A stretch of 64,000 nt of DNA from Corallium rubrum (lineage: Eukaryota; Cnidaria; Anthozoa; Scleralcyonacea; Coralliidae). Below the pieces are notes generated by a model. The model did not search any database and was not told the DNA's origin. It worked only from the letters and a program-made list of their open reading frames with translations. Shown piece by piece: positions 2,827-64,000 of the stretch. Position numbers and translations under genes: made by a program. Position 1 is the stretch's first letter; every line of letters begins with the position of its first letter. The stretch spans positions 62,001 through 126,000 of the forward strand of contig CAXIUP010000273.1 of assembly GCA_964035015.1 (NCBI GenBank). Direction: 5' to 3'.

Positions 2827-5800
2827 AGGGGTTGGAGGTTTTAAATCAACGAGGCGATGATAGCATGATGATTTGAGAGAGATATTTTGGGTTTTGAGGA
2901 GGCAATGATATATGATAATTGCCATTTGAGATATATATTTAGGTATTCGAGGTTTTAAAAGAACGAGGCAATCATAGTGATATTCTGGATTGCGTTTTCG
3001 AGAGATATTTTGGGTTTTGAGTATGATAATTGGCATTTGAGATATACATTTAGGGGGTTCGAGGTTTTAAAAGAACGAGGCAATGATACATGATGTTGTA
3101 GATTGTGTTTGAGAGAGATATTTTGGGTTTTGAAGGAGGCAATGATATATGATAATTGGCATTTGAGATATATATGTAGGTATTCGAGGTTTTAAAAGAA
3201 CGAAGCAATCATATATGATATTCTAGGGCGCGTTTGGGAGAGATATTTTGGGTTTGAAGGAGGCAGTGATAATATGATAATTGCCATTTGAAATATATAT
3301 TTAGGTATTCGAGGTTTTAAAAGAACGAGGCAATCATATGATATTCTAGAGCGCGTTTGAGAGAGATATTTTGGGTTTGAAGGAGGCAATGATATATGAT
3401 AATTGCCATTTGAGATATATATTTAGGTATTCGAGGTTTTAAAAGAACGAGGCAATCATATATGATATTCTAGCGGGCGTTTGGGAGAGATATTTTGGGT
3501 TTGAAGGAGGCAATGATATATGATAATTGCCATTTGAGATATATATTTATGTATTCAGTCGAGGTTTTAAAAGACGAGGCAATCATATATGATATTCTAG
3601 CGCTCGTTTGGGAGAGATATTTGGGGTTTTGAATGAGGCAGTGATATATGATAATTGCCATTTGAGATATATATTTAGGTATTCGAGGTTTTAAAAGAAC
3701 GAGGCAATCATAGTGATATTCTAGATTGCGTTTGAGAGAGATATTTTGGGTTTTGAATGAGGCAGTGATATATGATAATTGCCATTTGAGATATATATTT
3801 AGGTATTCGAGGTTTTAAAAGAACGAGGCAATCATATATGATATTCTAGAGCGCGTTTGGGAGAGATATTTTGGGTTTGAAGGAGGCAGTGATATATGAT
3901 AATTGCCATTTGAGATATATATTCAAGGGTTGGAGGTTTTAAATCAACGAGGCAATGATAGCATGATGTTTTAGATTGCGTTTGAGAGAGATATTTTGGG
4001 TTTTGAGGAGGCAATATGATATATGATAATTGCCATTTGAGATATATATTTAGGTATTCGAGGTTTTAAAAGAACGAGGCAATCATATATGATATGATAT
4101 TGTAGATCGCGTTTGAGAGAGATACTTTGGGTTTTGAAGGAGGCAATGATATATGATAATTGCCATTTGAAATATATATTTAGGTATTCGAAGTTTTAAA
4201 AGAACGAGGCAATCATAGTGATATTCTAGATTGCGTTTTCGAGAGATATTTTGGGTTTTGAGTATGATAATTGGCATTTGAGATATACATTTAGGGGGTT
4301 CGAGGTTTTAAAAGAGCGAGGCAATGATACATGATGTTTTAGATTGCGTTTGAGAGAGATATTTTGGGTTTTGAAGGAGCCAATGATATATGATAATTGG
4401 CATTTGAGATATATATTTAGGTATTCGAGGTTTTAAAAGAACGAGGCAATCATATGATATTCTAGAGCGCGTTTGGGAGAGATATTTTGGGTTTGAAGGA
4501 GGCAGTGATAATATGATAATTGCCATTTGAAATATATATTTAGGTATTCGAGGTTTTAAAAGAACGAAGCAATCATATATGATATTCTAGGGCGCGTTTG
4601 GGAGAGATATTTTGGGTTTGAAGGAGGCAGTGATAATATGATAATTGCTATTTGAAATATATATTTAGGTATTCGCGGTTTTAAAAGAACGAGGCAATCA
4701 TATGATATTCTAGAGCGCGTTTGAGAGAGATATTTTGGGTTTGAAGGAGGCAATGATATATGATAATTGCCATTTGAGATATATATTTAGGTATTCGAGG
4801 TTTTAAAAGAACGAGGCAATCATATATGATATTCTAGCGGGCGTTTGGGAGAGATATTTTGGGTTTGAAGGAGGCAATGATACATGATAATTGCCATTTG
4901 TTTTAAAAGACGAGGCAATCATATATGATATTCTAGCGCTCGTTTGGGAGAGATATTTTGGGTTTTGAATGAGGCAGTGATATATGATAATTGCCATTTG
5001 AGATATATATTTAGGTATTCGAGGTTTTAAAAGAACGAGGCAATCATATCTGATATTCTAGAGCGCGTTTGGGAGAGATATTTTGGGTTTGAAGGAGGCA
5101 GTGATATATGATAATTGCCATTTGAGATATATATTCAGGGGTTGGAGGTTTTAAATCAACGATAGCATGGCAATGATAGCATGATGTTTTAGATTGCGTT
5201 TGAGAGAGATATTTTGGGTTTTGAGGAGGCAATGATATATGATAATTGCCATAGTTGAGATATATATTTAGGTATTCGAGGTTTTAAAAGAACGAGGCAA
5301 TCATATATGATATGATATTGTAGATCGCGTTTGAGAGAGATACTTTGGGTTTTGAAGGAGGCAATGATATATGATAATTGCCATTTGAAATATATATTTA
5401 GGTATTCGAAGTTTTAAAAGAACGAGGCAATCATAGTGATATTCTAGATTGCGTTTTCGAGAGATATTTTGGGTTTTGAGTATGATAATTGGCATTTGAG
5501 ATATACATTTAGGGGAGGGGGTTCGAGGTTTTAAAAGAACGAGGCAATGATACATGATGTTGTAGATTGCGTTTGAGAGAGATATTTTGGGTTTTGAAGG
5601 AGCCAATGATATATGATAATTGGCATTTGAGATATATATTTAGGTATTCGAGGTTTTAAAAGAACGAGGCAATCATATGATATTCTAGAGCACGTTTGGG
5701 AGAGATATTTTGGGTTTGAAGGAGGCAGTGATAATATGATAATTGCCATTTGAAATATATATTTAGGTATTCGAGGTTTTAAAAGAACGAAGCAATCATA

Positions 5801-8800
5801 TATGATATTCTAGGGCGCGTTTGGGAGAGGGAGAGATATTTTGGGTTTGAAGGAGGCAGTGATAATATGATAATTGCTATTTGAAATATATATTTAGGTA
5901 TTCGCGGTTTTAAAAGAACGAGGCAATCATATGATATTCTAGAGCGCGTTTGAGAGAGATATTTTGGGTTTGAAGGAGGCAATGATATATGATAATTGCC
6001 ATTTGAGATATATATTTAGGTATTCGAGGTTTTAAAAGAACGAGGCAATCATATATGATATTCTAGCGGGCGTTTGGGAGAGATATTTTGGGTTTGAAGG
6101 AGGCAGTGATATATGATAATTGCCATTTGAGATATATATTTAGGTATTCGAGGTTTTAAAAGAACGAGGCAATCATATATGATATGATATTGTAGATCGC
6201 GTTTGAGAGAGATACTTTGGGTTTTGAAGGAGGCAATGATATATGATAATTGCCATTTGAAATATATATTTAGGTATTCGAAGTTTTAAAAGAACGAGGC
6301 AATCATAGTGATATTCTAGATTGCGTTTCCGAGAGATATTTTGGGTTTTGAGTATGATAATTGGCATTTGAGATATACATTTAGGGGGTTCGAGGTTTTA
6401 AAAGAACGAGGCAATGATACATGATGTTTTAGATTGCGTTTGAGAGAGATATTTTGGGTTTTGAAGGAGCCAATGATATATGATAATTGGCATTTGAGAT
6501 ATATATTTAGGTATTCGAGGTTTTAAAAGAACGAGGCAATCATATGATATTCTAGAGCGCGTTTGGGAGAGATATTTTGGGTTTGAAGGAGGCAGTGACA
6601 ATATGATAATTGCTATTTGAAATATATATTTAGGTATTCGCGGTTTTAAAAGAACGAGGCAAGCATATGATATTCTAGAGCGCGTTTGAGAGAGATATTT
6701 TGGGTTTGAAGGAGGCAACGATATATGATAATTGCCATTTGAGATATATATTTAGGTATTCGAGGTTTTAAAAGAACGAGGCAATCATATATGATATTCT
6801 AGCGGGCGTTTGGGAGAGATATTTTGGGTTTGAAGGAGGCAATGATACATGATAATTGCCATTTGTTTTAAAAGACGAGGCAATCATATATGATATTCTA
6901 GCGCTCGTTTGGGAGAGATATTTTGGGTTTTGAATGAGGCAGTGATATATGATAATTGCCATTTGAGATATATATTTAGGTATTCGAGGTTTTAAAAGAA
7001 CGAGGCAATCATATCTGATATTCTAGAGCGCGTTTGGGAGAGATATTTTGGGTTTGAAGGAGGCAGTGATATATGATAATTGCCATTTGAGATATATATT
7101 CAGGGGTTGGAGGTTTTAAATCAACGATAGCATGGCAATGATAGCATGATGTTTTAGATTGCGTTTGAGAGAGATATTTTGGGTTTTGAGGAGGCAATGA
7201 TATATGATAATTGCCATAGTTGAGATATATATTTAGGTATTCGAGGTTTTAAAAGAACGAGGCAATCATATATGATATGATATTGTAGATCGCGTTTGAG
7301 AGAGATACTTTGGGTTTTGAAGGAGGCAATGATATATGATAATTGCCATTTGAAATATATATTTAGGTATTCGAAGTTTTAAAAGAACGAGGCAATCATA
7401 GTGATATTCTAGATTGCGTTTTCGAGAGATATTTTGGGTTTTGAGTATGATAATTGGCATTTGAGATATACATTTAGGGGAGGGGTTCGAGGTTTTAAAA
7501 GAACGAGGCAATGATACATGATGTTGTAGATTGCGTTTGAGAGAGATATTTTGGGTTTTGAAGGAGCCAATGATATATGATAATTGGCATTTGAGATATA
7601 TATTTAGGTATTCGAGGTTTTAAAAGAACGAGGCAATCATTTGATATTCTAGAGCGCGTTTGGGAGAGATATTTTGGGTTTGAAGGAGGCAGTGATAATA
7701 TGATAATTGCCATTTGAAATATATATTTAGGTATTCGAGGTTTTAAAAGAACGAAGCAATCATATATGATATTCTAGGGCGCGTTTGGGAGAGATATTTT
7801 GGGTTTGAAGGAGGCAGTGATAATATGATAATTGCTATTTGAAATATATATTTAGGTATTCGCGGTTTTAAAAGAACGAGGCAATCATATGATATTCTAG
7901 AGCGCGTTTGAGAGAGATATTTTGGGTTTGAAGGAGGCAATGATATATGATAATTGCCATTTGAGATATATATTTAGGTATTCGAGGTTTTAAAAGAACG
8001 AGGCAATCATATATGATATTCTAGCGGGCGTTTGGGAGAGATATTTTGGGTTTGAAGGAGGCAGTGATATATGATAATTGCCATTTGAGATATATATTTA
8101 GGTATTCGAGGTTTTAAAAGAACGAGGCAATCATATATGATATGATATTGTAGATCGCGTTTGAGAGAGATACTTTGGGTTTTGAAGGAGGCAATGATAT
8201 ATGATAATTGCCATTTGAAATATATATTTAGGTATTCGAAGTTTTAAAAGAACGAGGCAATCATAGTGATATTCTAGATTGCGTTTTCGAGAGATATTTT
8301 GGGTTTTGAGTATGATAATTGGCATTTGAGATATACATTTAGGGGGTTCGAGGTTTTAAAAGAACGAGGCAATGATACATGATGTTTTAGATTGCGTTTG
8401 AGAGAGATATTTTGGGTTTTGAAGGAGCCAATGATATATGATAATTGGCATTTGAGATATATATTTAGGTATTCGAGGTTTTAAAAGAACGAGGCAATCA
8501 TATGATATTCTAGAGCGCGTTTGGGAGAGATATTTTGGGTTTGAAGGAGGCAGTGACAATATGATAATTGCTATTTGAAATATATATTTAGGTATTCGCG
8601 GTTTTAAAAGAACGAGGCAAGCATATGATATTCTAGAGCGCGTTTGAGAGAGATATTTTGGGTTTGAAGGAGGCAACGATATATGATAATTGCCATTTGA
8701 GATATATATTTAGGTATTCGAGGTTTTAAAAGAACGAGGCAATCATATATGATATTCTAGCGGGCGTTTGGGAGAGATATTTTGGGTTTGAAGGAGGCAA

Positions 8801-10736
8801 TGATACATGATAATTGCCATTTGTTTTAAAAGACGAGGCAATCATATATGATATTCTAGCGCTCGTTTGGGAGAGATATTTTGGGTTTTGAATGAGGCAG
8901 TGATATATGATAATTGCCATTTGAGATATATATTTAGGTATTCGAGGTTTTAAAAGAACGAGGCAATCATATCTGATATTCTAGAGCGCGTTTGGGAGAG
9001 ATATTTTGGGTTTGAAGGAGGCAGTGATATATGATAATTGCCATTTGAGATATATATTCAGGGGTTGGAGGTTTTAAATCAACGATAGCATGGCAATGAT
9101 AGCATGATGTTTTAGATTGCGTTTGAGAGAGATATTTTGGGTTTTGAGGAGGCAATGATATATGATAATTGCCATAGTTGAGATATATATTTAGGTATTC
9201 GAGGTTTTAAAAGAACGAGGCAATCATATATGATATGATATTGTAGATCGCGTTTGAGAGAGATATTTTGGGTTTGAAGGAGGCAATGATATATGATAAT
9301 TGCCATTTGAGATATATATTTAGGTATTCGAGGTTTTAAAAGAACGAGGCAATCATATATGATATTCTAGCGGGCGTTTGGGAGAGATATTTTGGGTTTG
9401 AAGGAGGCTATGATATATGATAATTGCCATTTGTTTTAAAAGACGAGGCAATCATATATGATATTCTAGCGCTCGTTTGGGAGAGATATTTTGGGTTTTG
9501 AATGAGGCAGTGATATATGATAATTGCCATTTGAGATATATATTTAGGTATTCGAGGTTTTAAAAGAACGAGGCAATCATATCTGATATTCTAGAGCGCG
9601 TTTGGGAGAGATATTTTGGGTTTGAAGGAGGCAGTGATATATGATAATTGCCATTTGAGATATATATTCAGGGGTTGGAGGTTTTAAATCAACGAGGCAA
9701 TGATAGCATGATGTTTTAGATTGCGTTTGAGAGAGATATTTTGGGTTTTGAGGAGGCAATGATATATGATAATTGCCATAGTTGAGATATATATTTAGGT
9801 ATTCGAGGTTTTAAAAGAACGATGCAATCATATATGATATGATATTGTAGATCGCGTTTGAGAGAGATACTTTGATTTTTGAAGGAGGCAATGATATATG
9901 ATAATTGCCATTTGAAATATATATTTAGGTATTCGAGGTTTTAAAAGAACGAAGCAATCATATATGATATTCTAGGGCGCGTTTGGGAGAGATATTTTGG
10001 GTTTGAAGGAGGCAGTGATAATATGATAATTGCTATTTGAAATATATATTTAGGTATTCGAAGTTTTAAAAGAACGAAGCAATCATAGTGATATTCTAGA
10101 TTGCGTTTTCGAGAGATATTTTGGGTTTTGAGTATGATAATTGGCATTTGAGATATACATTTAGGGGGTTCGAGGTTTTAAAAGAACGAGGCAATCATAT
10201 ATGATATGATGTTGTAGATTGCGTTTGAGAGAGATATTTTGGGTTTTGAAGGAGCCAATGATATATGATAATTGGCATTTGAGATATATATTTAGGTATT
10301 CGAGGTTTTAAAAGAACGAGGCAATCATATGATATTTTAGAGAGCGTTTGGGAGAGATATTTTGGGTTTGAAGGAGGCAGTGATAATATGATAATTGCCA
10401 TTTGAAATATATATTTAGGTATTCGAGGTTTTAAAAGAACGAGGCAATCATATATGATATTCTAGCGGGCGTTTGGGAGAGATATTTTGGGTTTGAAGGA
10501 GGCAATGATATATGATAATTGCCATTTGTTTTAAAAGACGAGGCAATCATATATGATATTCTAGCGCTCGTTTGGGAGAGATATTTTGGGTTTTGAATGA
10601 GGCAGTGATATATGATAATTGCCATTTGAGATATATATTTAGGTATTCGAGGTTTTAAAAGAACGAGGCAATCATATCTGATATTCTAGAGCGCGTTTGG
10701 GAGAGATATTTTGGGTTTGAAGGAGGCAGTGATATA

Positions 10737-10822
10737 TTCAAGTTAAAAACAAGATAAGACAAAATGAGAGGTAATATTTCGACTCTATTTCAAAGTCATT
10801 ATCAAACCATCATTACCATTAT
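10737..10822. mobile_element. Short foreign insert in the satellite
   Basis: About 85 bp interrupts a monomer after gcagtgatatat and before tatatgataattgcc. It holds aatatttcgactctatttc and aagtcattatcaaacc, words resembling the tails of Penelope-like elements elsewhere in the window. Too short to classify. Confidence 0.55.
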
Positions 10823-11594
10823 ATATGATAATTGCCATTTGAGATATATATTCAGGGGTTGGAGGTTTTAAATCAACGAGGCAATGATAGCATGATGTTT
10901 TAGATTGCGTTTGAGAGAGATATTTTGGGTTTTGAGGAGGCAATGATATATGATAATTGCCATAGTTGAGATATATATTTAGGTATTCGAGGTTTTAAAA
11001 GAACGAGGCAATCATATATGATATGATATTGTAGATCGCGTTTGAGAGTGATACTTTGGGTTTTGAAGGAGGCAATGATATATGATAATTGCCATTTGAA
11101 ATATATATTTAGGTATTCGAGGTTTTAAAAGAACGAAGCAATCATATATGATATTCTAGGGCGCGTTTGGGAGAGATATTTTGGGTTTGAAGGAGGCAGT
11201 GATAATATGATAATTGCTATTTGAAATATATATTTAGGTATTCGAAGTTTTAAAAGAACGAAGCAATCATAGTGATATTCTAGATTGCGTTTTCGAGAGA
11301 TATTTTGGGTTTTGAGTATGATAATTGGCATTTGAGATATACATTTAGGGGGTTCGAGGTTTTAAAAGAACGAGGCAATCATATATGATATGATGTTGTA
11401 GATTGCGTTTGAGAGAGATATTTTGGGTTTTGAAGGAGCCAATGATATATGATAATTGGCATTTGAGATATATATTTAGGTATTCGAGGTTTTAAAAGAA
11501 CGAGGCAATCATATATGATATTCTAGAGCGCGTTTGGGAGAGATATTTTGGGTTTGAACGAGGCAGTGATATATGATAATTGCCATTTGAGATA

Positions 11595-11603
11595 TATATT
11601 CAG
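11595..11603. repeat. 9-bp target-site duplication, left
   Basis: tatattcag, repeated exactly at 15662-15670 on the other side of the 4-kb TIR element. It matches the uninterrupted satellite monomer at other positions. Confidence 0.85.
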
Positions 11604-15349: not shown

Positions 15350-15661
15350 CGTCTAGACTGCTACAAGCATTTTACTAAATTTGCACCACGATTCTTAACA
15401 AAATAAAAGCTTTAGTCTTAAATCTTATTACTCTTACAAATTCTTACTTCAAATGTTCTTCGTAGAGTTTTTACCACGCCTTGGATTGAAATTGTTGCTG
15501 CCATTTTGAAAAATCCGAGTACAAAAATCCGAATCCCGATGATTGTTCCGAAGATGACTCGGACCCAGTACCTCGCGGTCACCTCAACTGCGAGTATCCC
15601 ATCTAGCCACGACCATTCAATTACCCAAGCTATGGAAATACAAGCGTCTGCACGCAGGCTA

Positions 15662-16125
15662 TATATTCAGGGGTTGGAGGTTTTAAATCAACGAGGCAAT
15701 GATAGCATGATGTTTTAGATTGCGTTTGAGAGAGATATTTTGGGTTTTGAGGAGGTGATGATATATGATAATTGCCATTTGAGAAATATATTTAGGTATT
15801 CGAGGTTTTAAAAGAACGAGGCAATCATATATGATATTGTAGATCGCGTTTGAGAGAGATACTTTGGGTTTTGAAGGAGGCAATGATATATGATAATTGC
15901 CATTTGAGATATATATTTAGGGGTTCGAGGTTTTAAAAGAAGGAGGCATGCAATCATATATGACGTTGTAGATTGCGTTTGAGAGAGATATTTTGTGTTT
16001 TGAGGAGGCAATGATATATGATAATTGCAGAGATATTTAGGGATTTTGAAGGAGGCAATGCCATTTGAGATATATTTAGGGGTTTGAGGTTTTGAAAGAA
16101 CGAGGCAATCAAACATGATAATTGT
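15662..16125. repeat. Right remainder of the ~123-bp satellite
   Basis: Resumes with the duplicated target tatattcag followed by gggttggaggttttaaatc, exactly the monomer interrupted at 11603. About four more diverged monomers follow, increasingly irregular towards 16125. Confidence 0.93.
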
Positions 16126-45719: not shown

Positions 45720-46565
45720 ATGAATAAAATGCTTGATTGCACTCGTACTAAAATTATGCAAAAATATTTGCATAAAATAAGAATAATGAGCGCAATCGAG
45801 CATTTCTTCTACACGGAGAATCTTGCGGTCAGGTTTTTATTAATTTCTCATCCAAATTTTGACCAAATTCAACCAAAATTTAATGGATTCATGGTCGTTG
45901 GTTTATGGCCAACACTTTTGCAAACTTTCATGAAAATCGGTGTAATAGTTTTTGAGCTATCCTGGTGACAGACAGACAAACAAACAAACAAACAAACAAA
46001 CAAACAAACAAACAAACAAACAAACAAACAAACAAACAAACAAACAAACAAACAAACAAACAAACAAACAAACAAACAAACAAACAAACAAACAAACAAA
46101 CAAACAAACAAACAAACAAACAAACAAACAAACAAACAAACAAACAAACAAACAAACAAACAAACAAACAAACAAACAAACAAACAAACAAACAAACAAA
46201 CAAACAAACAAACAAACAAACAAACAAACAAACAAACAAACAAACAAACAAACAAACAAACAAACAAACAAACAAACAAACAAACAAACAAACAAACAAA
46301 CAAACAAACAAACAAACAAACAAACAAACAAACAAACAAACAAACAAACAAACAAACAAACAAACAAACAAACAAACAAACAAACAAACAAACAAACAAA
46401 CAAACAAACAAACAAACAAACAAACAAACAAACAAACAAACAAACAAACAAACAAACAAACAAACAAACAAACAAACAAACAAACAAACAAACAAACAAA
46501 CAAACAAACAAACAAACAAACAGACAGAACGGGGTAAAAACATAACCTCCTGGCGGAGGTAATGG
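45720..46565 (+). mobile_element. Repeat element with 3' (CAAA)n expansion
   Basis: 5' part aaaatgcttgattgcactcg, middle tttcatgaaaatcggtgtaa and tagtttttgagctatcctgg, then the (CAAA)n tract, then cataacctcctggcggaggt. This order is common at the 3' ends of marine invertebrate non-LTR elements or their SINEs. A deleted minus-strand copy lies at 22776. Confidence 0.7.
45972..46521. repeat. (CAAA)n microsatellite, ~550 bp
   Basis: About 137 uninterrupted tetramers, flanked on both sides by cagaca units. Because 4 and 3 share no factor it stays open in all frames on both strands (NKQT on plus, CLFV on minus), which produces false reading frames of up to 250 residues. Confidence 0.98.
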
Positions 46566-48117
46566 GACCTTAAGATGCTAGGACGACGACGGCGGTTAAA
46601 AAGCAATTCAAATTTTAGCATTAAAAAGTAGTTACGGTTAACTGACTACTGTGTTCAATATTTGAAGCTTGTTTTATAATTTTCAAAGTGGTAAAACGGT
46701 TGCAGTGTCTGTGTTAAAGCAATCTCAAACAACAGTTCTCATCACACCAAGAGTCAATGTCGTCCTGAAGACGTGAAAATGATCTGAGTGGCGTTGTATA
46801 CAGAGCGAGGACGGTGTTCAGATTACTCTTGGGACTAGAAATTATTCATTATATTTGTTTTGCAAGAAGAATGTTTTTGTTTGAAGGGCGTCGTCCTCGA
46901 AGTTCCCGTCGTAGATCTTAAGGTCCCTAATAACTGATTTGGAACCTTTCATCAGAGTGAAACGTTATATCCGAAGCTTTCTTCTGGGAGCGCTTCACTC
47001 TGATGAGGGGTTCCAAATGTCAATTATCTGTTTATACTTGTAGCTTTAAACGACAATTGTATATTAGTTTATACTAGTTCAGTAGCTTACTACCACATGC
47101 CCAATGATCTGCTCTATATACAGAATACCGTTCGCCTACGTCAAACTGCCAGACTTTGTCTCCTTTGCAGCCAGCCGTTCTTGTGTTGGTGTTATTCTTC
47201 TGTTTTATTTTCCCTCCCCACTAACGGCTTATTGCATGCTTATTGCGTGCAGTAATATGCATTCCATTCTAATTGAAGAGCCATGCAATCACGGCTCTAG
47301 TAGACCAAAATTGAGAACTATGCATGAAGCCGTTTATTATCTGATTTGAAAAAAGCGAGAAGTGTGTTGAAATCAAACAGTATACCCGTTTTTTTAAATT
47401 TTAAAAAAATTCGAGGTGTTTTCATATCAAACGGCTTTTGAGTGTATGTTATATGTAGCTTCCCAAACGAATCAGTAGTTTTAGAGAAATTTGGGGTAAA
47501 AGTTGTGGGGATTTTATGTTGACTAAGATCAATTACCAACTTCTCGATAATTGATTTCCTTTGTATTGCTGCATGCATGGGTGTTGATCCCGATTGGCTT
47601 ATGCCCCAGTTACACTATACCGGATTGCCTTAACTCAATCGGATGCCAAAACATTAGTAGTTGCACTGCTCCGCTCCTCAAGCATTCATCAGTTATACAC
47701 GAAAATTTTCATCATGTAGTTGAACGCTGCCATGTTGCAACTATGTTGCTACCATTTTGCTCCGGATAACTGCGTGGTAGTGTAAACAAAACCCCTATCC
47801 GCGATACGCAAAGTAGTCCGATACGCAAGTAATGAATGGAATATATTGCTGCATTATAGACAGACATTTCGAGTTCCACCAAACTTCCATCAAAACCCGA
47901 CTTGGTACAAGAGCATGAAAAACCAGACTTGATACAACAGCGTGCCAACAACACTGTTTAAGCTGGCCAGCTCAACCATGTTCTAGCCTATCATTGCAGG
48001 CAAAAACAAGCTGTGCGGTTTTACGTGTGCATGTATATAGTGGATAATCGGTTTTGGAATCAAAAAACTCGTATTTCATGCTTACTAATTCTGATTTTGT
48101 TCATTTAATCTGTGCAG
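46566..48117. other. Gene-free stretch upstream of the 2A exon
   Basis: Hairpin-like pair ggaacctttcatcagagtga / cactctgatgaggggttcc at 46941-47018. MITE-like pair agttacactataccgg (47609) / gtagtgtaaac (47776). The first exon and start codon of the 2A/NLR gene may lie here; no compelling candidate was found. Confidence 0.45.
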
Positions 48118-48224
48118 GTTGAGCTGTCTTGTTGTTCTCGTAGCAACAGTTATTTCTAGTTCTTCATTGGTCTTGGATCTTACTCAGTTTGGGGATGTTG
48201 AAAAAAATCCTGGCCCAAATTCAG
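48118..48224 (+). CDS. Exon encoding hydrophobic leader and 2A peptide
   Basis: Acceptor ttaatctgtgcag, donor gtttgtta. Encodes LSCLVVLVATVISSSSLVLD followed by LTQFGDVEKNPGPNS. The D-V-E-x-N-P-G-P motif is the 2A consensus, at which ribosomes skip the Gly-Pro bond. The hydrophobic stretch before it resembles a signal peptide. Family knowledge: sea urchin NLR-type proteins begin with such signal-like 2A leaders. The exon has no in-frame ATG and an upstream stop at 48092, so an unseen first exon must supply the start. It ends in phase 1, matching the REase-like exon at 50696. Confidence 0.85.
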
Positions 48225-48539
48225 GTTTGTTATTTTTATCGTAGATTTTGTAAAATTTTCAAGTAAAGATTATCATGTTGTAATAAAATCAACCATGTTT
48301 ATCGTATATACATGTAGTAAGATCAACCTCGAATTAGACACATTAATAAAATTATAATATCTATCTCGTACAGTGTTGAAAAAGTTATTTGTTATATTTT
48401 ATATATTATATTTTTATTTATTACATATTTATTACTCATTGTTTACTTACATTAATTGAATACAGATGCCAGTAAATAATCAAAGACAAACGCATTTGAA
48501 AATCTTTTATAAGTATTGATTAGGTATATAAGCAAGAAA

Positions 48540-48867
48540 TTAAAGGTGCTGTCCACTCCGTTCTGCGCATGTTCCGCATCTTTGTTTATCGGGACCCTCA
48601 AACAAGACATTCGTAGATAATTACATGAAGTACTCAGCTCAATGTAAACCGTTAGAAACGACATGGCAGAAAACCAAGCGATTCGGTGAGGATATCTCTT
48701 CGGATTTCTTCTAATTCTTCTGAAAATGTTTTGTTTTGGGTACAAGTAATGAAGAGGAAGCAAGAAAAGCTTGCAATCTTCAATAAGGTATCAGTAAATA
48801 TTTTTATAAAGAAAGAAGTAAACATTAGTTTCGTACATGTGCAGAACGGAGTGGACAGCACCTTTAA
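48540..48867. mobile_element. TTAA MITE (~330 bp) in the intron after the 2A exon
   Basis: TTAA-aggtgctgtccactccgtt at the left and aacggagtggacagcacct-TTAA at the right. Confidence 0.9.
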
Positions 48868-49510
48868 TATAGTTACTATTTCGTTTTCTCCTTGTCAAAA
48901 ATGATGGAATGTGTACGTGGATATGACATACCTACAATAATTCATTACTTTATAAAATTATAATTTATAAGATCAGTTAAAAATCTAACAAAATATCTTC
49001 CCGTGAATGGAGATCATGCGGATTTTTTCGCAGTACTTACAACTGGACAGGGGTACGACCTTCGGGTTGATATATCGCTTAAACACCGAGGTCTAAGATA
49101 TATAACGAACTTATATCATAAATGGTATAGATGATATCCGTTGATTATTTAACGAAAGAAATAGGATTTTAGATGTAGTTTTTGAGCGATAAAAGTAGGT
49201 CATTTAATATGCAAGGACATTAACCTATATATCAACCGCGGTACATCAAAGAAAATCCACACATGAATGATACGAATTATAAAATGACCTTTTTTGAGCG
49301 GTCTGGAATGTGAAATCCAGCAATTTGATTGGTTCATGAGCGGTCTGGAACTTGCCGTTCGGGACTGCTGGCAGCGGGAATTTTATTAAAAAAAAGAAAA
49401 TTTAGTTAGTTTCAGAAATTGCAGCTTGATGTTAGAATTGAATTCGTTCCTAGAGGACTGGGCACAGTCTAAGGTATGAGTACCTTAATTAACCTTGCTC
49501 CGCTATCTGA

Positions 49511-49582
49511 GTTCTGGTGGCTCAATGGTTAGAGCGTCTGGCTAGCATTCAGAAGGTTGTGGGTTCGATTCCCGCTCAGAGC
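49511..49582 (+). tRNA. tRNA-Ala(AGC)-like sequence, likely SINE head
   Basis: Folds into a complete 72-nt cloverleaf: acceptor gttctgg/tcagagc with two wobble pairs, D stem gctc/gagc, anticodon stem tctgg/tcaga with loop ctagcat (anticodon AGC), T stem gtggg/cccgc. A and B boxes are good (tggctcaatgg, gttcgattc). It lacks the G3-U70 pair usual in tRNA-Ala, and similar tRNA-like heads are scattered nearby (55898, 56896), so a SINE origin is more likely than a working tRNA gene. Confidence 0.45.
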
Positions 49583-49967
49583 TCAGAGTTTTTCTGAGTA
49601 TTACTAACTAACACAGCTTGTACAGCAAACAACTAACATTTAAAAAGAAAATTTGCCAGTTATGGAACAAGATGGCTAATTACTACAGAACATGCGCATT
49701 GGTGAAACACACCGTGTATGTATGTTGTTTTGATGCATAATTCCCGTTTCTGCCTTATGTAATAAGTTTTAAAATGTCCAAAACATTCGCACAATTGTTT
49801 GTAATAAAAAGTAATTTAAAATGAGGGGAAAACGTCTAGCTGCCATTTTGGTTTGTGTACAAAATTATATAAGTTCGCAAAAACGATGGTGGTGAACACC
49901 TTGTTGAGTTTTCATCGAACATTCACAAGAGTTTTGGTCATATAATAAAAAACTAACTGACGTTGCT

Positions 49968-50425
49968 TGTTCGGTCAGTACTAGTGAAATATCGTACATT
50001 CGTTTTTCTGTATGTTATCGTACTCTCGTTTTTCTCGGCTCACCTGCATCATAGTCAATCGAGATATGGTCTGGAAACTCAGCCAAAGTCTTTGGTCTAT
50101 CTTTTTGTTCGCCTTTATGCATTTTTGTGCACGGTGCACGGTCACGGAACACATTGTATTTTAGTATAATGAACGAATTGTCCAATAGCAACGTTTCAGT
50201 TCAATCACTCAACCGTGCTATTTAAATATTAATAAACCTAAAACAAAGGATGTGCACGGTGTAAGGTGCGGTTCAACATAAAATCACAGCTCATTATAGG
50301 TGCTTTGAAGTTTGCCGAGTTTCCAGACCATATCTCGATTGACTATGCCTGCATGCTCGCTGGGTCCGTATTAAAAACGTCGGTACGATATTTCACTAGT
50401 ACAGACCTCACGCTCGGTCAATAAG
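49968..50425. mobile_element. Inverted-repeat element
   Basis: tactagtgaaatatcgtac, catagtcaatcgagatatgg and tctggaaactc at the left are mirrored by gagtttccagaccatatctc, gattgactatg and gtacgatatttcactagta at the right. Arms of about 120 bp, spacer of about 210 bp. In the intron before the REase-like exon. Confidence 0.88.
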
Positions 50426-50695
50426 TCTATTATTACAGCGCCTTGTTGAACGTTTAGGGTACAGTTGTTTTGTTTTTAATATTTATTTCTTTAATTGCTG
50501 TAAGTGCTGAAGTAAATTAATTAAACAGTGAACAAATCCCATACAGTTTTGATCATGCATGCGAAAATTAAGATAAAAATGCATCAAAGTAAATGCAATT
50601 AGTTTGGATACTTCATCTTATTACTCCAATTAGGCATCCTGCATAAATGTCTTCTATTTGTTATGCATCAATTATCATATTTAACTATTTTTTAG

Positions 50696-52025
50696 CTCAA
50701 AATTTCAAGTTCCATCTCATTGGCCCTGATAAATTTGAGGAACTTGCGGCCATTGTACTAATGGGAACATATAAAGTTCCATTTTCAATATTTAAAAAAG
50801 GGAGAGATGGGGGTCAAGATGCAGTGGCGACGAGAGTGAATATTGACCTTGGAGGTGGAAATGTTCTTGCGAATCAAGATGTGATTGTGCAGGTGAAACA
50901 CACAACAGATGAATCAGCAAAACTTACTGATGGTACAAGAAAAAGCGTCTTTGAGAAAGAAGAGGTCAAAGTTAGAAAACTTGTCACTGAAAATAAGTTG
51001 GATATTTATATCATTGTCACCAATTATAAACTTCCTGCTGGTCAGTCTGATAGGCTTAAGAAATGTTTTAAAGATGCCGGAGCAAAAGAAGTTATTGTTG
51101 TTGGGTATGAGACACTATCTTTATGGCTGAATAGGTCACCAGAGTTGCAAAAGGAATTACTTCGTCTGTATCCGCTTGCTGACATTACTGACCTATTGAA
51201 CTGCCCAAGAGCTATACAGTCTGTACAACTGTTAGAGCGATATAAAGAAGACTTGAAAGTAGTAGTTGATGTCGAAGGATTCACAGAAGCGAAAGCCATT
51301 GTGGAGTCTGAAAAAGGTCTTGTGTTTATTACTGGTTCACCAGGAAGTGGTAAAACGACTATTGCAAAGCAATTGGTTGTTCACCTCTTTCATGAATACG
51401 ATTTTTTTGACATTACCTTCGCAAATGATTTTATTGAATGTTGGATTCCCGATCAGAAACAAGTATTTTTCATGGATAATATTGATTGTGATGAGATGAG
51501 AAAGTGGTGTAAATTAGAAGACAAGCTTAAAATCGCAATAGAAAAAGGATCGAAGTTTGTGTTTGCTGGCAAAACAGTAGTACTGGAAGAAGCCCGTCGC
51601 GCGTTGAACGAACCAGGTCACCATGTTTTTTTATGACCGTTTATGCAACGCAACAATTGACCTTTCAGATCAACAATTTAACCTAAGTAAAGACAAGAAA
51701 CAAGAAATGCTAAAGAAACATGTCGAGATGGGTGACAATGACAATTCGACGAAAGAAGCTCTTCTCAAAGATGACATGTGACATGCAGCGGGAATCAAAT
51801 GTCTAAGTTTTCCTTTGTTTGCAAGGTCTCTTGGATCACATGGTTGCTTGGAAAAATTTAAGGAGGCATATAAACTGAAGTTCTTGGATCACTTTGTTGA
51901 GTGGGTACAGTCGACTAGTGTAGGCTCAGAATCCGGCGCTGACTTTGGTGCATCGCCGGCACCAAAACGCCCACGCCTGGAATCCGAGCATGCGTCTACT
52001 GCTGATAATGGACACTATACGACAG
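50696..52025 (+). CDS. REase-like plus STAND NTPase exon of the NLR locus
   Basis: Acceptor ttaactattttttag, donor gtttgtaa. Starts AQNFKFHLIGPDKFEELAAI. First domain: GRDGGQDAV (50800) and DVIVQVKH (50881) fit the D...QxK signature of Mrr-type PD-(D/E)xK nucleases. Second: ITGSPGSGKTTIAKQL (Walker A, 51334) and VFFMDNID (Walker B, 51463), a STAND-type P-loop NTPase. The frame ends at 51636 after a run of seven T; one base less would continue it through YDRLCNATIDLSD. A TGA at 51779 follows, then HAAGIKCLSFPLFARSLG, and the exon ends in a linker with APKRPRLESE. Open from 51815 to the donor. Damaged copy or sequence errors. Confidence 0.8.
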
Positions 52026-52289: not shown

Positions 52290-52388
52290 GCTGGAGTGAA
52301 GACCAGCAATTAGTTTCGCCGGCTTCCAAACGCCCATGGCAGGAATCTGAGATTCAGTGCAGCAAAGATAACGGATACAATATAACAG
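52290..52388 (+). CDS. Duplicated linker exon of the NLR locus
   Basis: 99 nt, phase 1 at both ends (acceptor tttattgtag, donor gtttgtac). Encodes WSEDQQLVSPASKRPWQESE and then a segment ending DNGYNIT. It repeats the end of the previous exon (ASPAPKRPRLESE ... DNGHYTT), so it looks like an exon or exon-end duplication. The KRP-x-x-E-S-E core is basic-acidic and probably disordered; function unknown. Confidence 0.7.
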
Positions 52389-52591: not shown

Positions 52592-55065
52592 CACTTACAA
52601 AATTTCTGGCTGATGAGTACAAGGACAGAGCATCTCGTCTTCACCCGTTACCCTGGTTTGATACAACGCAGTTCGAGCTAGACAAGGTTTACACAAGGCT
52701 GGGCATTATACAAAGAGAGAATATCCGGTCGCAACTGACAAACAAAACAGTCGAGCTGTCTGAGATATTCGATAAACATCAGTACAAGATGAGTGAGAAA
52801 CCAAGAACTATCTTGATTGAAGGAAGTCCTGGAATGGGGAAAACAACGCTGAGCCTCAAACTTGCGTACGACTGGGCCAGGGGTCGAATGCCCAGCACAT
52901 TTCCTCCCGTTCAGTTGGTTCTCCTGATCAAGTGCCGAGATATGAAAGGTGACATTTTAGAAACAATCAACGACCAGCTTCTGCCTTCGGACAGAAGCAA
53001 TTTGAAGACGAGCCTTAGTAAATTTATCGAAAAACAGCCGAGTGAAATTATTTTGGTCGTTGATGGATTTGACGAGACCCCAGAAGCTGCTGCAGAACAT
53101 GTAATGAACTTGTTAACGCGGAAATGTCTACGAGAATGTTACGTAGTTGTGACTTCTCGGCAAGAGAAAGGACTGAAAGTACGGAAATATTTCGATACAC
53201 TGTTGGAGATTAAAGGCTATTCTATAAATGATGTAAGAGAATATGTAACAAAATACTTTCAAGATAACGACCCATCCCTTACTAAACGGCTAATTCAAGA
53301 CTTAGCAACAAACAAGCGGCTTGAAACACTGTCTACAAACCCACTGAATACAGTGCTACTGTGTGTAGTTTTTGAGGATTATGGCGGGGAGTTACCTTCT
53401 ACTGTAACTGAACTGTACGACAATATTGTTTTTTGCATAACGGAGCGATACTGTAAAAAAAGCGGTTTGGCGGTGGAAGATAAGCTTTTACAAACATCTA
53501 AGGAAACATTGGGAAAATTAGCATACGAAGGCCTGCTTGAAGACACTTTGTCTTTCCGCGAAAGTAACTTAAACGTTGACAAGATTCAGTGTACTAAAAT
53601 GGGGTTTCTGTACCAAGAAGTAAGTGAACGAAAGATCAAGCCAGACCATACTTACTGGTTCCTCCATAAAACCTTTCAAGAGTACTTAGCAGCGTTTTAT
53701 TTCACAAACAAAGTAGAAAGGAAGGAGCTGACAGTTGACTATATGATAGAACAATTGCAAGATACTACAAAGTTTATGCAAGTATTGATGTTCGTATCGG
53801 GTATGCTGCGTGAAAAAGATGCTCTGCTAAGCAAGGATTTTGTAAGAAGTCTGGGAAAGGTTCTTTTGCAGAGCCAGAACATGGATAGGAATCAAGTAGT
53901 AAACATTTTATGTGCAGTTCTTTCCGAAGGACTTGTTGATAAAGATGTGGCCGACATTATACATCAATTCCTTCCAGAAAACCTAATATGCACTACACAG
54001 TACAGTACAGAGAGTATGTTTCCAGGACCGTGCCTCGTATACTGGATCTACTTTGTAGAAAAGATGGAGTCAATGCAGAGGTTTATTTTGACAAATTCTC
54101 TTTCGCCAGTATTGAAATAAGTACTTCAGATTTAGGATTAATTTGTAAAGCATTGAAGGAAAAGTTGAAAGTGCGGACATTTTTGTTAGATGCCTGCTTC
54201 TTAAGTGATGAAACTGCAAATAATCTGGCCGATATGCTGTCCCACAACTCTATACCGTATAGAAAAGCTCGATCTTGAAGGTAACTGCTTTACCGCAGAA
54301 GCCGCCAAAATCATAGCACCACATCTCTGCCAAAACACTACTCTGAAGCAACTTTCGTTCGCTTATAATAACTTGGGAGACGTTGGAGTGAAAGCTATTA
54401 CAACCGCCCTTACATCCGACACTTCATTAACGGGCATGGCTGCCCGTAATAACAACCGCAATCCTAGTTTCCGAGAAGATGGTAAGAAAGGTTCGGCATT
54501 GCATATTCTGTCTCTGGAGGGTACCGAGTGTGGTCAGGAAGGTGCTTCTGCTGTGGCTGCCATGCTGTGTACTAACAACACATTAACGACATTGGACATT
54601 TCATACAATCCACTTGATTCCAAAGGAGTGACTTACGTTGCGGAGGCATTAAAACCAAACAGAACGTTAAATAGCCTTGACCTTAGGGAAGCTGACTGCA
54701 GTAATGAGGGAGCAGCAGCTATTGCGGATATGTTACGTAGTAATCAAACACTGACGAAACTCCTTATATCAAATTATCATATGGAGAGCAAACAGCACGC
54801 TAACAAAGTTGATAAAGACGGCGCAGTCGCCCTTGCTGATGCACTACGAGTCGATAATTCCGCTTTAAAAGAACTTCATCTTAGCAACAATGATATCACT
54901 GATGAAGGGCTGAAATATTTCGCAGAAGCTTTGCTTGTTAACACGGTACTGGATAAGTTATGTATCAAGTATCCTGGTGATGGCTTGATAGCCCTTGCCC
55001 ATGCCACGAGGGCAAGAGTAGGAAGCAGGATAACTTGGGACTGCTCTTGCACAAAACATGCATAG
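52592..55065 (+). CDS. NACHT-LRR exon of the NLR locus
   Basis: Acceptor taatttccttatag, phase 1. First ALTKFLADEYKDR, then the NACHT NTPase: Walker A IEGSPGMGKTTLSLKLAYDW (52819), Walker B ILVVDGFDETPE (53050), and the winged-helix motif FLHKTFQEYLAAFYF (53661). Then leucine-rich repeats of the 28-residue ribonuclease-inhibitor type (LDLEGNCFTAEAAKIIAPHL, LTTLDISYNPLDSKGVTYVA, LKELHLSNNDITDEGLKYFA) up to the stop at 55065. The frame changes twice: near 53997, where acagt is doubled, and near 54245. The NACHT part is fully open (to 54120 in one frame). NLR proteins act as cytosolic sensors in immunity; the ligand here is unknown. Confidence 0.85.
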
Positions 55066-59536: not shown

Positions 59537-62500
59537 TCAGTTTCCTTTTCTTGAGGTCACTTCTGTGGGGATCAATAGTTGAATGGGTCTTCGTAACATT
59601 GTAGGTTTCTTTGTCTCCTTGGTTACAACTCTAATCTTTGCTGATCTGACTTTGCCGTCCCTGCCAGGCAGTAACTCTTCTATTCTCGCCATTCTCCAAA
59701 GACATCTTGCAGTCCCTTGTTCCTTCATGAACACAATGTCTCCCACGGCTAGCGTCTCTTCTTTGGTTCTGTCCTTGATGGCTTTGGCTTTCTCTAAAAG
59801 GCTGGTGAGGTACTCTTGCGACCAACGGGTGGTGAACTGAGTTAATAATCTTCGGTGGTGCCGCATTCGCCTCGTAAGACTATCATTGGTGCTTTTGATG
59901 TCACTGTACTCTTCATTTGGCGTGGAAGCAATTCTCCTTCCGTAAATAAGATGTGATGGAGACAAGGGATAGGAAATCCCTTCTACATCGTCATATATGT
60001 ATGTCAATGGACGAGCGTTCAACACTCCTTCAATCTCAACCAGCAACGTATGCATCTCATCGAAGGTCAACAGGGCTTTTCCAATTGATCTTTTGAGACA
60101 ATCTTTGGTAAGACGAATAATTCTCTCCCAGAACCCTCCCCACCAGGGAGCCTTCTCGACAATGAAATTCCAGCTCACTCCACGGTTGGCCAGGTGAGCT
60201 TTTACTTGGGGCGAACGACGAATGTTCTCAATTTCCTTGCGACACGATTTGAAGTTCTTTGCGTTGTCGGACATCAGTACTCTGGGGAGTCCCCTTCTGC
60301 TCGTAAAGCGGCGAAACGCTCTTAGGAACTGTTCTGCAGTACATCCGCCAACCAATTCCAAATGAACCGCCCTTGTTGCTGCACATGTCAATAGGCAAAC
60401 ATATACCTTTTCAGTCGCATTGACGTTGGACGGATCCTTCTTTCGCACGTACAAAGGCCCTGCGTAGTCCACACCTGTGTTACTCCATGGAGGTCCTTCA
60501 TCTACTCTCTCCCGTGGCAGTTGAGGAGGCGGCATAACAGCAAATGGTTTTCCTGAATGTCTTGCGCATACGACACATTGTTTGATGAAACGTTTCACAG
60601 ACTCTCTTCCTTTGGGTATCCAGTAATTCTCTCGCAAGCAAGTAAGGGTGCTCTGAACGCCGCTGTGCATCGTCCTGTGATGTGCATCTTTGATCATCAG
60701 TGACGAAAGGTGATGCTTGGCAGGCAAAAGCACGGGATTCTTCGCTGCATAAGCCAGAGAGGAATTTTCTAGTCTTCCCTTGCAACGTAAAACTCGGTTA
60801 TCATCCAAAAAGAGCCCAAACTGTTTAACATAAGCAGGAGGGTTTGAATCGTTGTGAATAACAGCGTTGAGTTCTTTGTCGTAGAACTCTTCTTGAACTG
60901 ACAAAATCCATTGTATTCTTGCATAGTTTATCTCACCAGCGGTTAACTGCTCATCCGCAGCGGTTTCACGTGGATTTCGTTCTGTGCTTTCCAGGTGGAG
61001 CTTCAGCTTGTTCACAAATCTAATCACTGTGGCGGTTACGCGGAGTAGCTTTGTTAAACTGCTGAATGTGTCGACCTTGATTACTCGGCTTACACGTAGT
61101 CTTGGGCTGGTGTCTTGCGTGGCGGCGAAGACATGGGTTACGATAGGCGGTTGCTTGACAACTTCACTTAAAGCAGACTGTTCGGATTCCTTTTCACTGA
61201 TCATAGGAGGCCACTGGGACTCGTCGTGCTTGAGAAACTCGGGACCACTCCACCATAATTCACTTTCAATGAGTTGTTGGACAGTTGTTCCTCTGGAGGG
61301 CAGATCTGCAGGATTTTGACTACCCGGGCAATGTCTCCAAACCTTGGTTGGTGTTAGCTTGTGGATTTCATCGACTCTGTGTGCAACATACTGCTTCCAG
61401 CTCTTCTCGTTTCGGATCCAATACAGGGTTGCGGTTGAATCGGTCCAACAATAAATGACATCGGTTGTCATGACCTTGGTTAGGGCATTCAGCACCGTGT
61501 TCATCAAACGAGCTAGAATAAGAGCACCTAAGAGTTCCAAACGGGGTATTGTTTGAAGCTTTAACGGGGCCACTCTGGACTTGCTGCACATCAACGTAGT
61601 TTCAACATGATCGTTGACGACCCTTCTGATGTAGACGGCTGCTGCGTAAGCTTTCTTGCTGGCGTCGCTGAACCCATGTAGCTCTATCCTTCTCTTCACT
61701 GATGGGAACGAAAAGTAACATCTTGGAATACGAACGTTTTGAAGAACTAGCAACTCGTTGATAAGAGCACTCCACCTCTGTTTCATTTCGCAAGGTAGTT
61801 CATCATCCCAATTTGATTTTTCAGCGCATAATTCTTGGAAGAGGACCTTCACTTTGACAATGAATGGCGACACAAATCCTAACGGATCAAAGACTCTGGC
61901 AGAAAGCTTCAAGATTGAACGCTTCGTTTCAGGTAATGTAGAAACATATTTCTTTAGTTCCTCGAAGTCGTATAGCAACATGTCCGATTGAGTATCCCAA
62001 CTCACACCCAGTATCTTAGCCAGATCTTCTGTGTTGGTTGCAAATGAGCCCACGGAACTCTTTGTATAGGACTGGTCATCTTCGGTTATACCTTGGGTCG
62101 CATCTCGGTCCACAGCAGTTGCTGTTATCTGTGTTCCAAGCTCATTTACCTCAATTAGCTTGCACAGTTCAGCTGAGTTTGAGGTCCACTTGCGAAGGTT
62201 GAATCCTCCACTGGCCATGATGGACTTGCTTGACTGGTACAACTCAAAGGCCTCTGTGACTGTGTCCCCACCTGTTGTCAAATCGTCGACATACAAACTG
62301 TCCTTCAGGGTGTTGACAGCGTCTTGTTGCTCTTGTTGCGAAAGATGATGGAGAATGGTTGCTCCAAGAATTGCTGGGCTTGGTTTTAAACCGAAAACGA
62401 GTCGGCAGAATCGGTACTCGATAAGCTTTGGGTTTTCTTCTGTCATAACATCTTGGAACCACAGGAACCTCAGACAGTCCCTATCGATAGGACTAATTCC

Positions 62501-64000
62501 GATCATGAGGAATGCTTTCTCAATATCAGCAACTAATCCCACTTGATGAATTCTGAATCGCAGAAGGATATCGAAGAGGGATGGTATCAGGTTTGGCCCC
62601 TGCCTTAGACAGCTGTTGATCGAGGTGTGGTCATCCTTTTCATGTGCAGAACCATCGTACACAATCCGAAGCTTGGTTGTAGATTTGTTCTCTCTTATGA
62701 CACCATGATGAGGCATGTAATGGGTCTTTCCACCACTGATTTGTTTAGGGTCAACAATTTCAATCACACCAGCTTCCAACTGCTCCTGGATTATACAATC
62801 ATATTTTACCAGTAATTCCTTGTTTTTCTTCAGGTGTCGTAGCAAGTAATTTGCTCGGTTTACACTGAGTTGATAGTGGTCTGGTAAATTGTCCGCTTTG
62901 GACTTCCAAGGTAACTTCACGTTGTACCGTTCACCGTCATAATGCACATCATCCAAAACACTTTCATACTCGGGTTTTGTTTCTTCATCCCTGTCACGAA
63001 TACCAATGGATTCTGTCTGCCAGAATTTCTCTAACATGCACACCAGGTCGTCGTTGCTGGGTTCTGGTAGTCCGATGTCTGCCTTGTGCAGAATGAGGTG
63101 TGTTGAGGAGCTCTCTCTGCTGTGACTCGATTCACCTGTGTCAATGACACCCGACAATATCCATCCGAGCTTGCTTTCCACTGCCACAGGACCAGAGATT
63201 CCCTTGACGACATTGCCAGTAATGAATTCCCAATAATAATCTGATCCTACCAATAGATCAATGTTGCTGTTAGTTGGGTCATCAAAGTCATCAGCAAGTT
63301 CCAGTCCCTGTAGATGAGGATAACTCCTGACTTCGGTTGTCGATAAAAGGTTGGAACAAATAGTAGGAAACGTCAAGGCCTTGATCATGGTTTCGTCACC
63401 ATTCTTGCTGACACAGAGTTCCACTATGTCACACTTTTGCTTTGAATAATTCTTGCCACCAAAGGTATTTACATGTAATGTTTCAGTTCCATTTCGCTTA
63501 ACACCTAGTTTCGCTTGTAATTCCTGTGTGACATACGAGCGCTGACTTCCCCCATCAAACAGAATTCTTGCTTCTACGACCTTCGATTCATTTCTTCCAC
63601 GCACAAGTGCTCTTGCAGTCTGTAGTACAACATTTGTTTTTGTGCGGGCAACGTTACATGTAGTTGTAGTTGGCGAAACATCTTGTTTAGGCTCAGTTTC
63701 CTGGCTGGTCTTGTTGATAGGTGTTGTTTCCTGGCCTTTGTTGGTAGGTGTTGTTTCCTGGCCTTTGTTGGTAGGTGTTGTTTCCTGGCCTTTGTTGGTA
63801 GGTGTTGTTTCCTGGCCTTTGTTGGTAGGTGTTGTTTCCTGGCCTTTGTTGGTAGGTGTTGTTTCCTGGCCTTTGTTCTTTTGATCCACTCCACATATCG
63901 CTTGATGATGCCTTTTCCCACAGTTCCTACAGCTTCGTGTTTTTGGGCAGTTGTTGGCACGGTGTCCCTTTTTTAGACACACAAAGCAGCGACCTTCTTC
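59537..64000 (-). CDS. BEL/Pao retrotransposon pol polyprotein, 5' partial
   Basis: Open from the window edge to a stop at 59537, about 1487 codons, no frameshift. In order (counting from the Met at 63982): gag-end zinc knuckles (CLKKGHRANNC, CRNCGKRHHQAIC; 2-30), six tandem KGQETTPTN units (37-90), aspartic protease with LFDGGSQRSYV (141-151), reverse transcriptase about 410-610 with SLYVDDL (562-568), Pao A17/RNase H region (VFDPLGFVSPF, HGFSDASKKAY, CWTDSTATLYW), integrase zinc domain HHRTMHSG...CVVC (about 1085), integrase core with GVDYAGP, MSDNAKNFK and WWGGFWERI (D, D and E, about 1150-1255), and a C-terminal domain with VGDIVFMKEQ. The long intact frame suggests a young, possibly active copy. 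Confidence 0.95.
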   Translation of the reverse strand, partial: EEGRCFVCLKKGHRANNCPKTRSCRNCGKRHHQAICGVDQKNKGQETTPTNKGQETTPTNKGQETTPTNKGQETTPTNKGQETTPTNKGQETTPINKTSQETEPKQDVSPTTTTCNVARTKTNVVLQTARALVRGRNESKVVEARILFDGGSQRSYVTQELQAKLGVKRNGTETLHVNTFGGKNYSKQKCDIVELCVSKNGDETMIKALTFPTICSNLLSTTEVRSYPHLQGLELADDFDDPTNSNIDLLVGSDYYWEFITGNVVKGISGPVAVESKLGWILSGVIDTGESSHSRESSSTHLILHKADIGLPEPSNDDLVCMLEKFWQTESIGIRDRDEETKPEYESVLDDVHYDGERYNVKLPWKSKADNLPDHYQLSVNRANYLLRHLKKNKELLVKYDCIIQEQLEAGVIEIVDPKQISGGKTHYMPHHGVIRENKSTTKLRIVYDGSAHEKDDHTSINSCLRQGPNLIPSLFDILLRFRIHQVGLVADIEKAFLMIGISPIDRDCLRFLWFQDVMTEENPKLIEYRFCRLVFGLKPSPAILGATILHHLSQQEQQDAVNTLKDSLYVDDLTTGGDTVTEAFELYQSSKSIMASGGFNLRKWTSNSAELCKLIEVNELGTQITATAVDRDATQGITEDDQSYTKSSVGSFATNTEDLAKILGVSWDTQSDMLLYDFEELKKYVSTLPETKRSILKLSARVFDPLGFVSPFIVKVKVLFQELCAEKSNWDDELPCEMKQRWSALINELLVLQNVRIPRCYFSFPSVKRRIELHGFSDASKKAYAAAVYIRRVVNDHVETTLMCSKSRVAPLKLQTIPRLELLGALILARLMNTVLNALTKVMTTDVIYCWTDSTATLYWIRNEKSWKQYVAHRVDEIHKLTPTKVWRHCPGSQNPADLPSRGTTVQQLIESELWWSGPEFLKHDESQWPPMISEKESEQSALSEVVKQPPIVTHVFAATQDTSPRLRVSRVIKVDTFSSLTKLLRVTATVIRFVNKLKLHLESTERNPRETAADEQLTAGEINYARIQWILSVQEEFYDKELNAVIHNDSNPPAYVKQFGLFLDDNRVLRCKGRLENSSLAYAAKNPVLLPAKHHLSSLMIKDAHHRTMHSGVQSTLTCLRENYWIPKGRESVKRFIKQCVVCARHSGKPFAVMPPPQLPRERVDEGPPWSNTGVDYAGPLYVRKKDPSNVNATEKVYVCLLTCAATRAVHLELVGGCTAEQFLRAFRRFTSRRGLPRVLMSDNAKNFKSCRKEIENIRRSPQVKAHLANRGVSWNFIVEKAPWWGGFWERIIRLTKDCLKRSIGKALLTFDEMHTLLVEIEGVLNARPLTYIYDDVEGISYPLSPSHLIYGRRIASTPNEEYSDIKSTNDSLTRRMRHHRRLLTQFTTRWSQEYLTSLLEKAKAIKDRTKEETLAVGDIVFMKEQGTARCLWRMARIEELLPGRDGKVRSAKIRVVTKETKKPTMLRRPIQLLIPTEVTSRKGN
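63715..63876 (-). repeat. 27-bp coding minisatellite in pol
   Basis: Six tandem units of ggtgttgtttcctggccttt plus gttggta on the plus strand, encoding KGQETTPTN on the minus strand, between the zinc knuckles and the protease. In phase, so the reading frame is kept. Confidence 0.95.

Follow-up and report, generated by a model that had tools for sequence, protein, structure and literature searches.

A candidate StopGo/2A leader exon upstream of a nuclease-type NACHT-LRR gene in Corallium rubrum

We analyzed a window of 64,000 nt of the Corallium rubrum genome (forward strand, positions 62001-126000 of contig C282, GenBank CAXIUP010000273.1, 156,839 bases; assembly of 474 Mb in 312 contigs), in which a putative leader exon closing with a StopGo/2A ribosome-skipping motif precedes the exons of an NLR-type gene. 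Behind the leader, the predicted gene comprises an exon with an Mrr-like segment and an nSTAND3 domain (exon B), a linker (exon C), an exon with a NACHT domain (exon D) and a C-terminal LRR part. Positions throughout are those of the window (Table 1).

Table 1. Coordinates of the predicted gene, of its sequence features and of repeats in the window
Feature	Position	Strand	Remarks
Leader exon	48118..48224	+	107 nt, phase-1 end; open frame between AG and GT
Hydrophobic signal-like stretch LSCLVVLVATVISSSS	48119..48166	+	maximum 10-residue Kyte-Doolittle mean 3.25
StopGo/2A element DLTQFG-DVEKNPGP	48176..48217	+	only core match in the window; upstream hexapeptide like the DLTxDG class of PMC12846837
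Predicted intron	48225..50695	+	contains an inverted-repeat pair and a tRNA-like element (listed below)
Exon B, Mrr-like PD-(D/E)xK segment and nSTAND3	50696..52025	+	PF20720 67.6 bits; PDC-S73 1.6e-27; PF04471 16.6 bits
nSTAND3 NTPase match	51265..51606	+	residues 190-303 of frame 50698-51633
Frame break in exon B	51621..51633	+	at a T run; reading frame shifts near 51627
In-frame TGA in exon B	51779..51781	+	
Exon C, linker	52290..52388	+	99 nt, phase 1-1; resembles the closing part of exon B (56% over 25 aa)
Exon D, NACHT part	52592..53995	+	PF05729 90 bits; NACHT match 52804-53265
C-terminal LRR part	53996..55065	+	two frame breaks; LRR_6 78.7 bits on 54205-55062
LRR frame breaks	~53996-54010, 54250-54262	+	P0002 open at both
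Inverted repeats like a miniature inverted-repeat transposable element (MITE)	48539-48572/48835-48868; further 49973-50407		in the predicted intron
tRNA-like element	49511-49584		in the predicted intron
Long terminal repeat (LTR) retroelement	59540-64000	-	BEL/Pao-like by eye; 1487-codon open frame
Tandem arrays	3022-11600, 15661-16028		unit ~124 bp
110-bp repeat	2147-2764		

The leader exon and its 2A element

Read from 48119, the leader exon translates into LSCLVVLVATVISSSSLVLDLTQFGDVEKNPGPNS plus one extra base. Its flanks are CTGTGCAG on the 5′ side and GTTTGTTA on the 3′ side, and direct reading bears out the plausible splice borders and phase-1 end that the first-pass annotation of this DNA had assigned to it. 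The same annotation described a hydrophobic, signal-like stretch closing with a full 2A consensus, which is likewise confirmed as an observation. The signal-peptide character was gauged by hydrophobicity alone: the maximum Kyte-Doolittle value of the leader was equalled or beaten by 25 of 4335 (0.6%) open 30-codon stretches behind an AG in the window (both strands, any frame). The hydrophobic start is unusual, yet not unique.

The core DVEKNPGP at 48194-48217 satisfies the consensus (D/G/C/N)(V/I)ExNPGP, which is matched nowhere else in the window in any of the six frames. For this consensus, an order-2 model predicts 1.7e-4 matches per 64 kb; for the stricter D[VI]ExNPGP it predicts 3.3e-5, which by simple scaling amounts to ~0.25 chance matches of the strict core in 474 Mb. 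The preceding hexapeptide DLTQFG agrees with the DLTxDG class of StopGo sequences (motif 4, RNA viruses; PMC12846837) except at the acidic position, where F stands. As in that class, DLTxxG is followed by D[VI]ExNPGP with D at p12, and the leader carries K at p15, a residue listed there as favored; in contrast to the viral polyproteins of this class, the motif lies here in a cellular gene. According to the same paper, the tested example of the class was nearly 100% active in vitro, and altering characteristic upstream residues killed activity in almost all cases. The leader thus has a complete 2A core in an upstream context that comes near a known type.

The exons behind the leader and their join to it

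The acceptor side of exon B at 50696 reads TTTAACTATTTTTTAG. The claim that this exon begins in the phase in which the leader ends was upheld by direct reading (phase 1 to phase 1), and exon D starts in phase 1 as well, behind the 1-1 exon C. The next exon was, however, placed too short in the first-pass annotation, which ended it at 50760. The donors of the leader, exon B and exon C are identical, CAG|GTTTGT. This 9-mer, CAGGTTTGT, occurs three times on the plus strand and never on the minus strand of the window, and four times on the two strands together in the remaining 92.8 kb of the contig. Among the sequence evidence for leader and NLR forming one gene, we regard this common donor as the strongest.

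Exon B aligns at 27% identity, from the N-terminus through the NTPase, with Mrr-nSTAND3 proteins of bacteria (P0001, from Empedobacter; PADLOC candidate PDC-S73). Its start coincides with the N-terminus of the Bacteroidota relatives, and hence would fit a module set behind a leader. It differs from the bacterial proteins in being fused to NACHT-LRR, with the leader in front. Membership in nSTAND3 is indicated by a PF20720 score above the cut-off of 27.2 bits. The nuclease-like domain proposed earlier behind the leader was borne out in part: E14, D37, D50, Q65 and K67, i.e., the E, D and QxK positions, are invariant in five of five aligned sequences, and PDC-S73 was matched at profile positions 3-247 of 752, but the score for Mrr_cat (PF04471) lies under the cut-off of 21 bits, and the segment is therefore termed Mrr-like and not counted as an Mrr member. 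An AlphaFold2 model of exon B, built with five sequences, had a mean predicted local distance difference test score of 44.7, too poor for a fold search, and comparison with PDB sequences gave only weak P-loop-type matches and one match to an FtsH fragment.

The start of exon D fits, by eye, the start of the region common to public relatives. NACHT is followed by LRR, in two frames as assembled and continuously in the public NACHT-LRR protein P0002. Identity to P0002 is 99% at residues 1-390 and again at residues 473-740, and 94% in a middle stretch of 89 residues. The NACHT exon has relatives in 490 public proteins at E ≤ 1e-10; among the matches listed (120 of 490), those in public assemblies (P0003-P0121) are 48-88% identical, P0003 reaching 87% in NACHT. 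In its own genome, four matches were found, namely the exon itself and three at 28-35%. This NACHT clade seems to be expanded elsewhere, with a single copy found in the genome studied here. Genome searches with leader DNA, exon B and the NACHT exon, in which only the best candidates were scored, revealed no second copy of the leader, of exon B or of this clade; for leader DNA and for exon B, the single match was the window's own copy. No literature joining nSTAND3, NACHT and NLR was found.

A possible source of the 2A motif and the genomic context

At E ≤ 10, the genome has a single further match to the leader peptide, namely LDVTLFGDVERNPGPES at locus L015 (E 0.2, residues 18-36), which stands upstream of an endonuclease-like frame recognized by eye as that of a non-LTR element. 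Over a 15-codon core part, 37 of 45 nt agree between LDVTLFGDVERNPGPES and LDLTQFGDVEKNPGPNS; of the 12 residues common to leader and L015, 9 are encoded by the same codon, where 4.8 would be expected (P 0.012). This is suggestive of a common origin of the leader 2A and the L015 retroelement 2A. On the other hand, no signal-like stretch was seen by eye in the element, and none of the seven open frames of at least 80 aa at 47007-48901 around the leader had a Pfam match, to an endonuclease, a reverse transcriptase or otherwise.

A second 2A-like sequence is far more frequent. The pattern GAYGTNGARRANAAYCCNGGNCC was found at 141 places in the genome (reversed control: 0), and by eye all of the matches listed read DVEENPGP. 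At loci L001-L008 on contig C1, this core is closely followed by a Herpes_teg_N-like (tegument deubiquitinase-like) domain; the eight loci opened of the 141 all have this one protein context, with Herpes_teg_N recognized by Pfam on L002. Derivation of the leader from this repeat was rejected, as the sequence upstream of the core at these loci is unlike the leader.

A tandem NLR cluster was rejected, since the gene had no tblastn match in the remaining 92.8 kb of the contig, of which 5 kb are N, and no 2A core was found there. Contamination had been considered because the NACHT exon matched only itself, with the next best match at 28%. Base composition did not discriminate contaminant from host, but a 1.5-kb piece of the LTR retroelement has full-length matches on other contigs (100% on C292; 99% on C1, C8 and C12; 98% on C112; 94% on C18), and such near-identical copies place the contig in the genome. 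Judging from near-identical copies on several chromosomes, the element is recently active. A cluster of NACHT genes lies on contig C22 (L031, L036 and L038; G000:C22:40869-1051326). Its frames start with a multi-pass membrane-like segment with paired cysteines, LRRC8/pannexin-like by eye, before NACHT; in L031, Pfam recognized NACHT and, beyond it, no more than weak NTPase matches. A literature search judged by title gave, among the papers listed, no publication on a NACHT fusion with an LRRC8/pannexin-like part, none on 2A-like sequences in sponge NLRs and none on 2A peptides with Helitrons.

Interpretation and rival explanations

Based on these results, we lean, with moderate confidence, towards a nuclease-type NLR gene that bears a StopGo leader akin to the 2A leaders of sea-urchin NLRs, with transcription, splicing and skipping predicted from sequence. 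The precedent to which the first-pass annotation appealed is real: according to PMC4981915 (Roulston et al., 2016), the N-terminal 2A leader of Strongylocentrotus purpuratus NLRs skips (in SpNLR2A6, ~80%) and serves as a signal sequence once skipping is blocked, and 12 of 14 such leaders are predicted signal sequences. NLRs are also named as cellular 2A carriers in PMC11512398. As in the sea urchin, the 2A core of C. rubrum would close a signal-like peptide at the N-terminus of an NLR with NACHT and LRRs, and cytosolic and secretory forms would be expected. However, the sea-urchin leaders have 26 aa, whereas that of C. rubrum would have ~33; here, the hydrophobic start is set apart from a DLTxxG-type 2A, and the leader has an exon to itself, with 2.5 kb between it and the following one, ahead of an Mrr-like/nSTAND3 module.

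In the proposed mechanism, the leader exon would open the coding sequence, or come second in it behind a short exon with the ATG. Most ribosomes on the spliced mRNA would skip the Gly-Pro bond, freeing the leader (~33 residues up to Gly, given an AT|G start) and yielding a cytosolic receptor that begins with Pro-Asn-Ser-Ala-Gln-Asn-Phe and continues through the Mrr-like nuclease segment, nSTAND3, NACHT and LRR. At the point where the ribosome either skips or reads on, a leader of ~33 residues still lies inside its tunnel. Where skipping fails, the leader would stay on and could route the receptor into the secretory pathway. By analogy, the bulk of the product would stay in the cytosol, starting with Pro, and a lesser share would take the secretory route; secretion would concern the minor form if skipping is as efficient as in the similar motif class. 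The DNA itself provides the sequence elements, the splice-site dinucleotides, the phases, the common donor 9-mer and the domain matches; from these we infer that translation starts, that the exons are spliced, that ribosomes skip and the products are targeted, that the nuclease is active and that a working exon B allele exists. A bolder version, which we consider distinctly doubtful, holds that a retroelement- or virus-type StopGo was captured as leader exon of an animal NLR with a bacterial Mrr-nSTAND3 front, independently of the sea-urchin leaders, and that translation splits the receptor into a cytosolic form starting with Pro and a secretory form.

Several observations weigh against a working leader on this gene. 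The leader exon has no ATG, and an upstream exon must therefore supply the start (an exon ending in AT would give AT|G); at 46530-48090, only one donor scored >1.5 and it gives no in-frame ATG, and no convincing first exon was found. Among public proteins, 67 candidates were retrieved with the leader, none at E ≤ 10. The F in place of the acidic residue speaks against activity, as changes at characteristic positions abolished it in almost all cases in PMC12846837. The PF05729 profile finds 24 NACHT places in the genome, this one included, and the same leader, which the first-pass annotation proposed to look for on other NLRs, did not recur: none of the nine other loci read, of 23, has a 2A motif upstream in the sense frames (10 kb of upstream DNA for three loci, 3.6 kb for six). 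Thus, 2A was seen at one locus among 10, of 24, which is a further difference from S. purpuratus.

The state of the gene copy is a matter of its own. The leader and NLR exons may belong together in a decaying pseudogene from which nothing functional is made, an account that we judge unlikely but take seriously. The frame break and the stop in exon B and the two LRR frame breaks point in this direction, as does the intact 1487-codon frame of the retroelement in the same window, which indicates that base quality is not bad throughout and that poor sequence in general does not account for the breaks. No second copy of exon B was found in the genome for comparison. P0002, on the other hand, which is 99% identical over 390 and 268 residues on either side of its middle stretch, runs open across both LRR breaks, so that intact copies of this part exist and the gene is not dead everywhere; no such open counterpart was found for exon B. 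Moreover, the leader, the NACHT frame and the splice sites are intact, and an assembly or allelic error is possible at the exon B sites. This copy nevertheless looks damaged and may be dead, and there is real doubt whether it is functional.

It is rather improbable that the leader exon is a retroelement 2A remnant lying near the NLR by chance and outside its transcript. The L015 match with its nucleotide and codon agreement favors this, but the stretch shares its terminal donor 9-mer with the NLR exons and ends in a phase that fits theirs, its hydrophobic half is absent from the element, the frames around it carry no Pfam match, and a retroelement source is compatible with a StopGo leader of the NLR gene as well. 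Still less probable is a start of the NLR at the ATG at 50647 or in another first exon, with the leader unused or an alternative exon. This ATG is in frame with exon B and could start it without the leader, for which no ATG-bearing exon was found; however, 50647-50695 closes with a pyrimidine-rich, acceptor-like AG, and the bacterial homology begins only at 50696. Finally, the genome-wide expectation for the strict core and the tendency of pyrimidine-rich acceptor flanks towards hydrophobic codons leave some room for the whole pattern being due to chance. We give this hardly any credence, because the core, the DLTxxG context, the hydrophobic start, the phase, the common donor and the adjoining NLR all coincide.

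The 2A leader spliced to an NLR, as put forward in the first-pass annotation, is supported by the 2A core with its context, the signal-like start, the phases and the common donor 9-mer, and weighed against by a disrupted exon B and LRR part and by the nine other NACHT loci read, of 23, with no 2A upstream. With its predicted transcription, splicing and skipping, this interpretation is plausible and stands on firmer ground than at first reading.

Ribosome skipping is rare in cellular genes, and the cellular protein genes named for it in the passages cited are the sea-urchin NLRs. If true, the gene of C. rubrum would be a further case of an NLR, with a different StopGo class, in an exon of its own and before a bacterial-type nuclease/STAND module, which would suggest that 2A leaders have been taken up by immune receptors time and again. 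The retroelement 2A in the same genome would be a concrete source for such leaders. If the leader is joined to the receptor, for which its splice sites speak, the sensor could be made with or without a secretion tag.

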